Shown: in pieces, positions 3,092 to 47,459 of the stretch
How the letters are laid out: each line of letters begins with the position of its first letter
How positions within the stretch are numbered: position 1 is the first letter of the stretch
Source of the DNA: Prochlorococcus sp. AG-409-P03
GTDB taxonomy: Bacteria; Cyanobacteriota; Cyanobacteriia; PCC-6307; Cyanobiaceae
Direction of reading: 5' to 3'
DNA length: 64,000 bases
Assembly (NCBI GenBank): GCA_003215295.1
Contig: QCKN01000003.1
Coordinates: forward strand, 1-64,000
Translations under genes and position numbers: made by a program
The notes under the pieces: model-generated
The model's database searches: none
Told to the model about the DNA's origin: nothing
What the model saw: only the letters and a program-made list of their open reading frames with translations

Positions 3092-3133
3092 ATTAGCGAA
3101 TAACCCCCCTCAGTTGGCCTCTATTGGCCGATT

Positions 3134-3181
3134 TGGGGGCGGCGCGACCGCGCATAAGTATAGAATCCACAAGCACTTACG
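3134..3181 (+). repeat. dispersed hairpin plus 28-mer element, copy 3
   Basis: GGGGGCGGCGCGACCGCGC is followed by core 3154-3181 (ATAAGTATAGAATCCACAAG then CACTTACG). TAAGT and ACTTA form the inverted ends. It lies between the stop at 3091 and the promoter at 3206. Confidence 0.85.
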
Positions 3182-3205
3182 CCCAAAAGTTTCCCAAGTT
3201 TTCCC

Positions 3206-3559: not shown

Positions 3560-3588
3560 TGGACATTCCACCCTGTCCGTGGTATAAT
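3560..3588 (+). promoter_or_regulatory. sigma70-type promoter with structured leader
   Basis: TGGACA (3560-3565), a 17-base spacer and TATAAT (3583-3588). The leader of about 64 bases contains mutually exclusive short helices (GACTC/GAGTC and ACAGA/TCTGT) and ends in AGAGGA before ATG 3659. Confidence 0.65.
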
Positions 3589-3887: not shown

Positions 3888-3948
3888 GGGGAGACCGCAC
3901 CTATAAAGAGACGGTAAACGGAAACACTCTGCTGAGTGTGGTCTCCCC
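3888..3948 (+). ncRNA. 61-base structured RNA with 9-bp closing stem
   Basis: GGGGAGACC (3888-3896) pairs perfectly with GGTCTCCCC (3940-3948). Inside is the hairpin ACACTC-TGCT-GAGTGT (3924-3939) and an A-rich internal segment. It lies between the small gene and the tmRNA-like RNA and may be a processing signal or a separate RNA. Confidence 0.55.
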
Positions 3949-3955
3949 ACCCTTC

Positions 3956-4036
3956 GGGGGTGTAAAGGAGTTTCGACGGGCTGAGTCCTATAAGGAATCC
4001 GTTCGGACCAGGGTTCGATTCCCTGCACCTCCACCA
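3956..4036 (+). ncRNA. tag-less tmRNA-like RNA (tRNA-like domain only)
   Basis: GGGGGTG (3956-3962) pairs with CACCTCC (4026-4032), followed by A73 and an encoded CCA (4034-4036). The third pair is G-U, the alanyl-tRNA synthetase identity element. TTCGACGGG (3972-3980), the tmRNA 5' signature, takes the place of a D arm. TTCGGAC (4002-4008) lies directly before the T arm CAGGG-TTCGATT-CCCTG (4009-4025), exactly as in tmRNA. Only about 20 bases, folding as ACGG/CCGT and TCC/GGA, replace the hundreds of bases of tag frame and pseudoknots. A degenerate tRNA or an ssrA integration-site remnant are the alternatives. Confidence 0.7.
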
Positions 4037-4059
4037 TTTTATACTTGCAAATCGCATTT

Positions 4060-4107
4060 GCGCGGCGGCGCGTCCGCGTGTAAGTGTACAATCCACAAGG
4101 ACTTAGG
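4060..4107 (+). repeat. dispersed hairpin plus 28-mer element, copy 4
   Basis: GCGCGGCGGCGCGTCCGCG is followed by core 4080-4107 (GTAAGTGTACAATCCACAAG then GACTTAGG). It lies between the tmRNA-like RNA and the promoter at 4132. Confidence 0.85.
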
Positions 4108-4131
4108 GCGAAAAGTTTCTATGGTTTTGTG

Positions 4132-4946: not shown

Positions 4947-4958
4947 GAAGTCCCATTG

Positions 4959-5005
4959 CGGGGCGGCCCCTCCCGCCATAAGTGTAGAATCGACAAGGAC
5001 TTACG
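4959..5005 (+). repeat. dispersed hairpin plus 28-mer element, copy 5
   Basis: GCGGGGCGGCCCCTCCCGCC, a strong GC hairpin of different sequence from the other copies, is followed by core 4978-5005 (ATAAGTGTAGAATCGACAAG then GACTTACG). It is the last copy, at the right edge of the G+C-rich block. Confidence 0.85.
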
Positions 5006-5037
5006 ACAACAAGCTCTAAATAAATCGGACTTTGTTC

Positions 5038-16062: not shown

Positions 16063-17388
16063 TTAAAATTCCTTAGTTTTTATGATGATAAGTTCGTTAT
16101 CCACGATCTTTGATGAATAAAGATTCCCATCCTTTTCAGGAACCCTCTTCTCTAGAATTGCTTCTGCTACTTTAACAGAAACATTGTTACGAATAAATCT
16201 ATTTATATTTCTCGCTCCATATTCTTTTGAATATCCATTTGTAATTATATAGTCAAGAAGAGATTTAGTTTTCCGAATTGGGATGTCTTTAAGCTCCATT
16301 TTGGCTATTTCTCGTAAGTTATCTTGCGACAATTGGTTAAAGAAAATGAAATGGTCAATACGATTTAAGAATTCTGGATTAAAATTCTTCTTAACAGACT
16401 CTAATACTTGATCCTTGCTCTGTTCATAGTCTACAGGAGACTTATCAAAGCCTACAAGCATTTTATTTATCTTAGTATCATTCAAGCCTTGGTTGGATGT
16501 AAAGATAAAAATAGACTTAGAAAAATCAAGCACCTTTCCCATATTATCCGTTACAGTACCATCATCCAAAAGGGACAATAAGAAATCATAGAATTTGGGA
16601 TGTGCTTTCTCTATCTCATCAAAAAGGAAAATCCACTTGTTCGATGCATCAGCTTTTTCAGCTAAAATACTCGTTTCTGTATGACCAACATAACCTGGAG
16701 GAGCCCCGATTAACTTAGCGTAGTCATGCGAGGAAGAGAACTCTCCACAGTTAATCTTGTAAAAGTTACCACTATACTTTTCGCCCAGCGCCTTAGCCAA
16801 TTTAGTTTTGCCAACGCCTGTAGGTCCGATAAAAAAGTAAGAACTAAAGGTATCCAACCCCGTAGCTAACAACTTAAGCGAACTCATAATACCTTTTATA
16901 GCCTCTTCCTGCCCAATAACAGAACTTATTAGGTGCTTCTCTATCCTTTCAATATCGGACAGAGTTGATAAAGGGTATGTTTTTTCGTTTCCCACTTGTG
17001 GTTGCTGGTCAATATGAACCTTTCCTATATATTTTTTAAATAACTCATTTGCGTTATTGATCGCAAAATTGGCGTTAATGTCGAAACAAATAAACTCAAA
17101 CTCGAAATGAGGATAAGCCTCCACTATAGTTGTATATAGAGCAGAAATAAGATCTTCATACACCCCCGCCTTCTTATAATCATCTTCTCCTATATAGAAA
17201 GCCTCTAAATCTAACATGAATAAGTCTACTATGGATTTTTTGTAATCCATAACCTTTATGGAGTTGGGACTAGAGAGAAACTTCTGTTTTGTTTTCTCGT
17301 ATAAACGAACTTCCTCTTCGGGATCTAGTATCTTAACAGAAACAATCTCGTCTAACTCTTTGCAGTAAATTTTATAACTATCAGTCAT
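16063..17388 (-). CDS. Clp/Hsp100-type AAA+ ATPase, single module
   Basis: 441 residues. After an unrecognised N-terminal ~150 residues, an AAA+ module of the ClpA/ClpB D2 type: Walker A GPTGVGKT (188-195), pore loop GYVG (232-235), Walker B FLFDEIEKAH (255-263) with D257/E258, sensor TSN, arginine region FLNRIDHF, and a C-terminal small domain with GARN. It would unfold or remodel protein substrates as a hexamer. I see no tripeptide for ClpP docking and no second AAA module. Its N-terminus may confer substrate choice. Overlaps the upstream gene by eight bases. Confidence 0.8.
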   Translation of the reverse strand: MTDSYKIYCKELDEIVSVKILDPEEEVRLYEKTKQKFLSSPNSIKVMDYKKSIVDLFMLDLEAFYIGEDDYKKAGVYEDLISALYTTIVEAYPHFEFEFICFDINANFAINNANELFKKYIGKVHIDQQPQVGNEKTYPLSTLSDIERIEKHLISSVIGQEEAIKGIMSSLKLLATGLDTFSSYFFIGPTGVGKTKLAKALGEKYSGNFYKINCGEFSSSHDYAKLIGAPPGYVGHTETSILAEKADASNKWIFLFDEIEKAHPKFYDFLLSLLDDGTVTDNMGKVLDFSKSIFIFTSNQGLNDTKINKMLVGFDKSPVDYEQSKDQVLESVKKNFNPEFLNRIDHFIFFNQLSQDNLREIAKMELKDIPIRKTKSLLDYIITNGYSKEYGARNINRFIRNNVSVKVAEAILEKRVPEKDGNLYSSKIVDNELIIIKTKEF

Positions 17389-45563: not shown

Positions 45564-47459
45564 TTAAGCACCACAATCCCCACCTGCAAGTGAGCACATT
45601 TCTCCAGTCTGTACTTCCGACTTTATTTCCTCACCCTTCATATATTTATCTACATTAGTTTGGGTAAGAGGTATAGCCTCTAAAGGCTCATTACCTTTCG
45701 AGCCAGCACGATAAACCGTGAGTCCTTTAAGGTATGGAGCATAGTCCAAAGCGGCTTGAGAAAAGTCCGCAGCTTCCGCAGTATTGGGGAGGTTGATTGT
45801 TTTTGAAATACAGGAGTCGATGTACTTCTGAATCGTCGCCTGTACTTTAATGTGACCATCGGGCGCAACATCATAAGCTCCGACGAAGTTATCAAGCGGG
45901 ACTCCTTTTTCGTAAAACTCTTGGAATAACGGATCGACAACTAATTGCTCCTTCCAAATATTGTTAGTACGGTAACGCCTGTTATACATAGCAGCGAATA
46001 TCGGCTCAATTCCAGAACTAACCCCGTGGAGCATTGAGATAGTACCACAAGGAGGGATAGTAAGCATAACAGCATTTCGAATCCCGTATCGCTTGATAAG
46101 CATTCTGATACGAGCAGGAAGGGTTTTTGCAAAAGATTCATTTAGATACTTTTTGTAATCGAACTCTGCGAATGGGGCTTTGTCCCTTGCGAGGTAAATC
46201 GACATTTTGTACGACTCATCTCGTATGGTAGCAAAGAGTCGATCTAAAAACTCAAGGCACTTTTCACTACCGTACTTAATTCCCAGTTTAATAAGCATAT
46301 AATGTAGACCAGTTACGCCTAATCCAATTCTACGAGATCTCTGCGCGACAGTTCGACACTCCTCAGTAGGGAAATTGTTCACAGTTAGAACATTGTCTAG
46401 GAATCTAATTCCTGTACGAACTGTACGAGCCAATCTTTTCCAGTCAACATCACTACCATCAGCAAGCACCATATTATTGAGATTAATATTAGCGAGGCAG
46501 CAGTTTCCATAGGATGGGAGGGATATTTCCCCACAAGGATTGGTTGAATCAAGGCTTTCAAAATACGACACATTAGTATATTTATTAGCCAAGTCGATGT
46601 TATAGATGCCAGGATCTCCAGATTCTACAGAGTTTTTCCAAATCAGATCCCATAAGTCCCTAGCTTTAATGTCTTTACGACCTTGGCAAGAAAAAGTGTC
46701 TTTCCAGTCTTTCTTATGGAAATTTTCGGCTCGGGCAAGGGCATCTTCTTCATCCATACCTATTACATAGATAAACTCTTCACCGTTACGCAGCATCTCG
46801 TAGGAGTGATATTCTTTATTATTAAAAGAGAAATACCACTCTTCGTCTAGTTCAATCGCTTCCAAGAACCTGTCGGTAATAGCAACAGAGATGTTAAAAT
46901 TATTAAGTTGTCCTTGGTCTAACTTTACAGACAAAAACTCAAGTAAATCAGGGTGGGTAACATTAAGGATACCCATAAGAGCAGTTCTGCGATTCTTACC
47001 AGCACGGACATGTTCACCTACCTCATTAATCATTTGAAGAACGGAAACTGCCCCAGGAGCGGAATTAGCTACGCTACCTATATGATCTCCCTTGGGCCGA
47101 ATTTTAGAAACATTAAAACCTACGCCTCCACCTGCACAGGAGATCCGATACATGTCTTGTACAGTTTTTCCAATGGAGTCCACAGTGTCTTCTGGAATAA
47201 TAACATAGCAATTAAGCAGGTTGTGATTACCACGACTCCTACCAGCACCATAAATGATCCTACCACCTGGGATAAGATCCCCAGAACCGACTGCTTCATA
47301 AAACGCTTTTTCAACTTTTTCTTTGTTTTCATCAATCTCTGCGGAAGCAACAGTTTTAGCTATAACCTTTGCTCTTTCTGCCCATTTAGTTTCGCCAGGA
47401 TAGGCATAACGACTTTCAAAAATTTCCTGACCTAGATCACTTAATACAGCTTTACTCAT
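45564..47459 (-). CDS. nrdJ: class II (B12-dependent) ribonucleotide reductase
   Basis: 631 residues. Reductase core with IIYGAGR, LLNCYVIIPEDTVDSIG, STNPCGEISLPSYGNCCL (active-site Cys and Glu in NPCGE), IPPCGTISMLHGVSSGIEP, and a C-terminal CSLAGGDC pair that would re-reduce the active site. No ATP-cone is seen. Forms the thiyl radical with adenosylcobalamin, so no NrdB is needed. Provides dNTP precursors during infection. The only visible B12-linked partner is the radical SAM enzyme at 30.5-32.0 kb. Confidence 0.9.
   Translation of the reverse strand: MSKAVLSDLGQEIFESRYAYPGETKWAERAKVIAKTVASAEIDENKEKVEKAFYEAVGSGDLIPGGRIIYGAGRSRGNHNLLNCYVIIPEDTVDSIGKTVQDMYRISCAGGGVGFNVSKIRPKGDHIGSVANSAPGAVSVLQMINEVGEHVRAGKNRRTALMGILNVTHPDLLEFLSVKLDQGQLNNFNISVAITDRFLEAIELDEEWYFSFNNKEYHSYEMLRNGEEFIYVIGMDEEDALARAENFHKKDWKDTFSCQGRKDIKARDLWDLIWKNSVESGDPGIYNIDLANKYTNVSYFESLDSTNPCGEISLPSYGNCCLANINLNNMVLADGSDVDWKRLARTVRTGIRFLDNVLTVNNFPTEECRTVAQRSRRIGLGVTGLHYMLIKLGIKYGSEKCLEFLDRLFATIRDESYKMSIYLARDKAPFAEFDYKKYLNESFAKTLPARIRMLIKRYGIRNAVMLTIPPCGTISMLHGVSSGIEPIFAAMYNRRYRTNNIWKEQLVVDPLFQEFYEKGVPLDNFVGAYDVAPDGHIKVQATIQKYIDSCISKTINLPNTAEAADFSQAALDYAPYLKGLTVYRAGSKGNEPLEAIPLTQTNVDKYMKGEEIKSEVQTGEMCSLAGGDCGA

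Follow-up and report, generated by a model that had tools for sequence, protein, structure and literature searches.

A tag-less tmRNA-like RNA in a Prochlorococcus phage contig and its class in phages: candidate decoys of host trans-translation

The window analysed here is a stretch of 64,000 nucleotides (nt) of contig QCKN01000003.1 (positions 1 to 64,000) from the genome assembly of Prochlorococcus sp. AG-409-P03 (GCA_003215295.1). It is phage-encoded, with genes for a tail sheath, a head-tail adaptor and a DNA polymerase, and it carries an 81-nt RNA that corresponds to the tRNA-like domain (TLD) of transfer-messenger RNA (tmRNA) without its tag. The same RNA is present, at identical coordinates, in a 130,604-bp virus record of IMG/VR. 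This tag-less RNA belongs to a class of at least 124 distinct sequences, 65-88 nt long, that occupy at least 156 places. The best-supported reading of its function, which draws on precedent and which we hold as moderately probable, is that it would jam ribosome rescue in the host as a decoy of trans-translation or SmpB.

In a cmscan search of the whole window, the Rfam tmRNA model RF00023 matched the RNA end to end (window 3956-4036, model positions 1-374) with 65.5 bits, above the gathering score of 47, and an E-value of 2.7e-23, and the covariance model of the class itself, R1, built from 21 of its members, gave the 81-nt RNA 56.2 bits (E 3e-10). Chance is ruled out as its origin, given the E-value and the specificity of the pattern that defines the class. 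An earlier note on this DNA, made from the letters alone, had described an 81-base RNA with a 7-bp acceptor, a G3-U70 pair, A73, an encoded CCA, a T arm and two conserved tmRNA blocks, and the sequence is as described: the acceptor with G3-U70, UUCGAC, GGAC and the T arm are all present (Table 1). It had also taken the RNA for the TLD of a tmRNA rather than for a tRNA and had proposed the tmRNA model and tRNA calling as checks, a view that has held, given the end-to-end tmRNA match, the absence of an ordinary-tRNA call and the covariation within the class described below. ARAGORN finds four tRNAs in the window and neither a tRNA nor a tmRNA at 3956-4036. The Rfam tRNA model (RF00005) has no match there at its gathering score and, at a lax threshold, families other than tmRNA match only weakly and below threshold. 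Neither a D stem nor a 7-base anticodon loop on a 5-bp stem was found in the RNA.

The middle of the molecule is where it departs from tmRNA. Tag frame, resume codon and pseudoknots were not found in the window RNA, in which the space between UUCGA and the T stem comprises 32 nt (3977-4008) and is filled by one hairpin followed by GAC. This hairpin, the P2 helix, occupies the site of the tag and pseudoknots of tmRNA with 13 positions, 11 of them paired, and a loop of 3. The claim that the segment joining the two halves holds neither tag frame nor pseudoknots has therefore stood, with one correction: this segment is not a featureless joint but a hairpin, and its pairs covary in relatives. Frame 0 of the RNA runs without a stop, frame 1 has a stop only at codon 3 and frame 2 only at codons 9 and 12; no tag was called by ARAGORN, the only tag prediction made.

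The class was searched for with a pattern in which the ends of tmRNA are joined by 8-38 bases (TTCGACNGG...GGACNNNGGTTCRANNCC). In IMG/VR this pattern occurs at 60 viral loci, 58 of which have seven of seven acceptor pairs including G3-U70; the two exceptions are a chance match (L031) and a locus cut at the end of its contig (L049). The same pattern gave 18 loci in 84,980 bacterial and archaeal species genomes, and only one of these passes the acceptor and T-stem filter. It lies in Parafrankia (L083), its RNA is identical to that of the viral record L063, and the two are probably the same prophage. Gaps of 39-69 bases yielded only 3 viral loci, which marks the short form as a discrete class. 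With a looser pattern at least 120 stretches were obtained. In total, 201 sources (200 loci and the window) were reduced to 185 places, 158 of which passed a filter of seven of seven acceptor pairs and at least four of five T-stem pairs, without G3-U70 as a criterion, and 27 of which were dropped; the passing places count the window copy three times (window, L006 and L008), which leaves 156. ARAGORN makes tmRNA calls at 2 of the 124 class loci, and at L102 and L183 its call is longer and shares the 3' end of the tag-less RNA. A tRNA is present within 1 kb of 29 members and absent from that distance in the other 95, in the stretches examined, and an association with tRNA arrays as a general rule was dropped on this count. 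At L099, L135, L144, L151, L168, L184, L189 and L193 the RNA is shorter still, at 65-72 nt, and its P2 is mostly a plain hairpin with about 7-8 bp. A BLAST search of phages with the window region found no match; seven other class queries returned, among the matches listed, mostly T-arm matches and few tag-less copies, with several short human-gut phage records among the matches, and one class query against plasmids gave no match.

The importance of the fold is manifested in the way in which its paired positions change. TTCGAC, GGAC, the T-loop letters and T-stem pairs 52 and 53 were search criteria and are excluded as evidence of conservation. Outside them, G3-U70 and A73 are found in all 124 distinct sequences and pairs 1-72 and 2-71 are always G-C, while T-stem pairs 49-51 and acceptor pairs 4-6 take four to six types each (five or six in the case of pairs 4-6). 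The first seven pairs of P2 were not filtered for pairing, the pattern fixing only the first pair and, in the 60-locus set, two G on the 5' side. In these seven pairs 92.1% of the cells are paired in the 124 sequences, and 93.3% in a subset of 64 that share less than about 80% identity, as compared with a mean of 52% (maximum 57-58%) when partners are shuffled and a maximum of 51-53% when the strands are slid; 25 of the 28 possible Watson-Crick types are seen. In a gapless alignment of 21 sequences, 95.9% of the cells are paired and 128 have changed on both sides, where shuffles give 40; the covariation score is 0.692 against 0.169. None of 500 shuffles was as high on paired cells, two-sided cells, covariation score or further pair types, while a fifth measure, the number of pairs with a two-sided change, is unexceptional (15 against 13.2, reached by 50 of the 500 shuffles). 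A MAFFT alignment of 40 sequences, in which the acceptor was misaligned, was left out of the counts. Between the window RNA and its relative L004, three P2 pairs are changed on both sides and still paired. Because the remaining acceptor pairs and the T-stem and P2 pairs covary, the fold is, on comparative grounds, under selection across the class. Thus the homologues with compensatory changes and the conserved G3-U70 pair that the earlier note had named as tests were both found, the latter in every distinct sequence and alongside other pairs that do change.

Cultured carriers of the tag-less RNA are the Streptomyces phages LuckySocke, GiJojo, pSt2308 and Shaeky, the Stenotrophomonas virus Jojan60 and, with a diverged copy, Streptomyces phage Alone3. 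The RNA is unannotated in all six, and the annotations of GiJojo and Jojan60 place a hypothetical protein across all or part of it. Both TTCGAC and GGAC are kept in five of these six copies, which were found by BLAST. In the Alone3 copy (L090 2956-3035, 36.8 bits) GCACGAC stands in place of TTCGAC, which LuckySocke, with the same gene order, retains. Among 40 carrier records, 39 have a match to the tmRNA model at E 0.001, 38 of them above the cut-off and Alone3 below it; the remaining record (G040, with L063) has no such match, and R1 gives L063 65.7 bits. SmpB had no match in any of the 40 records searched, some of which are fragments. R1 was further run on 400 genomes of the host family, where it found the RNA in one, on this contig only, and on 386 genomes of the phylum, where five, the window's own included, gave matches; stricter filters in both searches lose weak matches. 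With 1 of 400 genomes positive under these filters, the RNA is not a resident gene of the host family. The four other cyanobacterial genomes, all outside that family, hold five divergent tag-less copies (L212-L216), three of which lie inside dense tRNA arrays (11-16 tRNAs in 3 kb); these three have lost TTCGAC, and GGAC is kept in none of the five. Other candidates were rejected as carriers, namely Synechococcus phages S-CRM01 and S-CAM1, which have a permuted two-piece tmRNA, and Gordonia phage GMA2, which has a tmRNA of 412 nt. The tag-less count also leaves out Microbacterium phage Skylord (L087, 36.7 bits with R1), Mycobacterium phage Nappy and Pseudomonas phage PA_L9.

At the level of the host, the window contig is binned with a genome of 1.36 Mb that is 70.6% complete and contains a cyanobacterial two-piece tmRNA (301.4 bits). 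Such a tmRNA is present in 11 of 12 genomes of the same family, and SmpB in 9 of the 12; accordingly, provided that the contig is binned correctly, the host has a target for interference. In the proposed mechanism, the tag-less RNA would be charged with alanine and bound by EF-Tu and, judging by the retained domain, by SmpB. It might then titrate SmpB or occupy the A sites of stalled ribosomes. The consequence would be a damping of tagging by the host tmRNA, which would let truncated phage proteins and engaged ribosomes escape tag-and-degrade rescue during infection. That a TLD alone can reach the A site follows from crystal structure 4ABR, described in a review (PMC3968760), in which alanyl-TLD with SmpB and EF-Tu is bound on a stalled ribosome.

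Several points weigh against the decoy reading. A search for SmpB in the assembly that contains the window, 70.6% complete, found none. Energy folding of the lone window RNA favours another fold, and its stability exceeds that of shuffles only mildly (z -1.64, with 15 of 200 shuffles as stable), so that it is comparative evidence, rather than energy, on which the fold is based. Phage contig L110 (record G044, 123.6 kb) carries both a 392-nt tmRNA (77588-77979) and a tag-less copy (46486-46567), a combination not predicted by a simple model in which trans-translation is switched off, and the copies in cyanobacterial genomes mean that virus records are not strictly the only place where the RNA occurs. 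What simple titration explains least well is that the alanine determinants never vary although an unchargeable form reportedly inhibits too, which turns these identity elements into a sharp puzzle for that model. An A-site mechanism that needs charging, or a rescue that adds alanine only, would explain their invariance. A slow-changing inheritance from tmRNA would be the less interesting explanation, yet pairs 4-6 have changed freely.

The rescue by alanine only, which we regard as possible though improbable, would make of the RNA an active substitute and not a mere decoy: charged and accompanied by SmpB and EF-Tu, it would enter the stalled ribosome and take the nascent chain onto its alanine. 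Without a template it would leave as peptidyl-RNA or be released by other factors, and the chains would carry one alanine and no degradation tag. Charging appears to matter in view of the invariance of G1-C72, G2-C71, G3-U70 and A73 in all 124 sequences while pairs 4-6 vary, and the complex seen in 4ABR binds stalled ribosomes. Mitochondrial tag-less tmRNAs have been suggested to help with incomplete mRNAs, whereas another review takes them as arguing against trans-translation of the bacterial type. No release step is known for such an RNA, and the DS6A-like RNA is reported to act as an inhibitor. The broader proposal built on this idea, namely that tag-less tmRNAs are widespread phage regulatory RNAs that need their alanine charge, are delivered by SmpB and EF-Tu and perform a non-degrading, single-alanine version of rescue across many hosts, is equally tentative. 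It is less probable still that the RNA is unrelated to trans-translation and serves as a decoy for some other host factor that acts on tRNAs or for a tRNA-cleaving defence, or as alanine donor for a tRNA-dependent enzyme. Several carriers within tRNA arrays, the 29 members with a tRNA nearby and the loss of GGAC, and in three of five places of TTCGAC, from the cyanobacterial-genome copies would fit such a role. The 95 members without a neighbouring tRNA do not, and neither does the retention of tmRNA-specific TTCGAC, GGAC and P2 instead of an ordinary tRNA-Ala; the blocks belong to the search pattern, but the cultured copies found by BLAST keep both of them in five of six cases.

That the RNA is an integration-site remnant or a decaying, functionless tmRNA gene is very improbable. 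tmRNA genes are reported to be common phage attachment sites; the copies of Mycobacterium phages Milly and Validus (L092, L093) consist of the 3' half only, near an integrase, the Alone3 copy is diverged, and in Shaeky an integrase gene lies about 1.5 kb from the tag-less copy. The earlier note had reasoned that a remnant would keep only the 3' part, and in this it was right: the window RNA has both halves and seven of seven acceptor pairs, unlike the lone 3' halves beside the integrase in Milly and Validus. The covariation of P2 in both the 124-sequence and the gapless 21-sequence sets, together with the double changes between window and L004, contradicts the remnant explanation. The least credible account is that of an ordinary tRNA or of an unrecognised full-length or two-piece tmRNA. 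Its size near that of a tRNA and the longer ARAGORN calls at L102 and L183 speak for it, but tRNA call, D stem and anticodon loop are all missing, and the halves are contiguous and closed by P2, unlike those of the permuted host tmRNA. The decoy of trans-translation remains the reading that we favour.

As for its surroundings, the RNA lies on the plus strand among small open reading frames (ORFs), while the tail, head and replication genes examined are on the minus strand, and it may be expressed early in infection. Two promoter-like sites were found, against a mean of 0.6 in shuffles; the sigma-70-like site listed in Table 1 is a possible source of its transcript, and the leader block shared with L004 may affect its processing. 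Five copies of a 58-nt repeat with the core RTAAGTRTASAATCSACAAG are spaced about 1 kb apart (805-862, 2020-2077, 3132-3189, 4058-4115 and 4956-5013), the fourth of them 21 nt past the tag-less RNA, and possibly represent a phage promoter, operator or terminator. Two direct repeats of 61 nt (121-181 and 2276-2336) resemble sigma-70 promoters that continue into a start codon. A Pistol self-cleaving ribozyme (1621-1716, 54.8 bits, cut-off 34.5) is also present in L004, and L183 has one that precedes its tag-less RNA by 105 nt on the same strand. That these ribozymes travel with tag-less RNAs is not a rule, as they occur in 4 of 44 records, two of which are close relatives and one of which is GMA2, a carrier of full tmRNA. 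Clp unfoldases act on ssrA-tagged proteins, and an AAA+ gene of the window (16063-17388), which matches the ATP-dependent protease family phrog_4871, could conceivably be linked to tagging. The full tmRNA of L110 has an ARAGORN-predicted tag, SPEYRIRLLTNTKW, without an ALAA-like degradation signal at its end. Between 23281 and 38416 the window holds a run of sugar, amino-transfer, radical-SAM-like and thiamine-enzyme-like genes, named from their translations, which seems unusual for a phage.

Table 1. Features of the tag-less RNA and of its upstream region (window coordinates)
Feature	Position	Strand	Basis
TLD-only (tag-less) tmRNA-like RNA, 81 nt	3956..4036	+	RF00023 and R1 matches
Acceptor 5' strand GGGGGTG; G3 at 3958	3956..3962	+	7/7 pairs with 4026-4032
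D-loop-like region without stem; ends in TTCGAC 3972-3977	3963..3977	+	sequence; aligned to tmRNA consensus UUCGAC
Closed helix P2: 5' strand 3977-3989, loop 3990-3992, 3' strand 3993-4005	3977..4005	+	11/13 positions paired; compensatory changes; covariation
T arm CAGGG-TTCGATT-CCCTG, perfect 5-bp stem, GGAC before stem	4009..4025	+	sequence
Acceptor 3' strand CACCTCC (U70 at 4030), A73 at 4033, encoded CCA 4034-4036	4026..4036	+	sequence
Sigma-70-like promoter, 11 of 12, upstream of small ORF and RNA	3560..3588	+	consensus match only
Leader block, 90% identity in L004; inverted repeat GGAGACC 3890-3896 / GGTCTCC 3940-3946	3889..3959	+	comparison with L004

RNAs of this kind are already known from mycobacteriophage DS6A, in print since 2009 by the citations; the primary report of a DS6A-type TLD-only RNA that inhibits tmRNA in E. 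coli is said to be Mao 2009. What is new is the breadth of the class, its covariation, its cultured carriers and the member in the window, and the size of the class is the real news: one printed phage example becomes at least 124 distinct sequences that are nearly invisible to ARAGORN. Searches of the open-licence literature found no further phage example of this kind and no earlier report of this breadth, of the covariation or of carriers in Streptomyces and Stenotrophomonas phages. The class points to trans-translation as a host process with which many phages interfere, which is testable in phages grown on laboratory Streptomyces, and, for a pathway under study as a target for antibiotics, it offers candidate inhibitors of natural origin.

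In comparison with bacterial tmRNA (RF00023), the window RNA shares the G3-U70 acceptor, A73, UUCGAC, GGAC, the T arm and the start of P2, and differs in having no apparent tag frame, resume codon or pseudoknots and in its length of 81 nt against 374 model positions. The cyanobacterial two-piece tmRNA (RF01851), the type present in the genome to which the window belongs, has a TLD of the same logic but is encoded by a permuted gene, made of two pieces and provided with a predicted tag (ANKIVRFSRQTAPVAA), and its acceptor and T-stem sequences are unlike those of the phage RNA. The organellar tmRNAs devoid of a coding sequence (CDS), in jakobid mitochondria and in the plastids of Mallomonadaceae (about 65 bp), likewise consist of a TLD without a tag frame. 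These are encoded by the organelle and suggested to serve it, whereas the window RNA is viral and the host genome keeps a complete tmRNA. The DS6A RNA (tmRNA Website tmID 11587) is described as TLD only in the tmRNA database papers (PMC11915505, PMC4131195). The 2025 paper, which gives DS6A as its phage example, states that this form inhibits endogenous tmRNA in E. coli (PMC11915505); according to the 2014 paper, strong inhibition of tmRNA is exerted by a "similar molecule" whether or not it can be charged, and titration of SmpB may be the cause (PMC4131195). Likened to it by this description, the window RNA is also phage-encoded, with little beyond the TLD and no CDS; it differs in belonging to another phage and host lineage, in which the host has a two-piece tmRNA.
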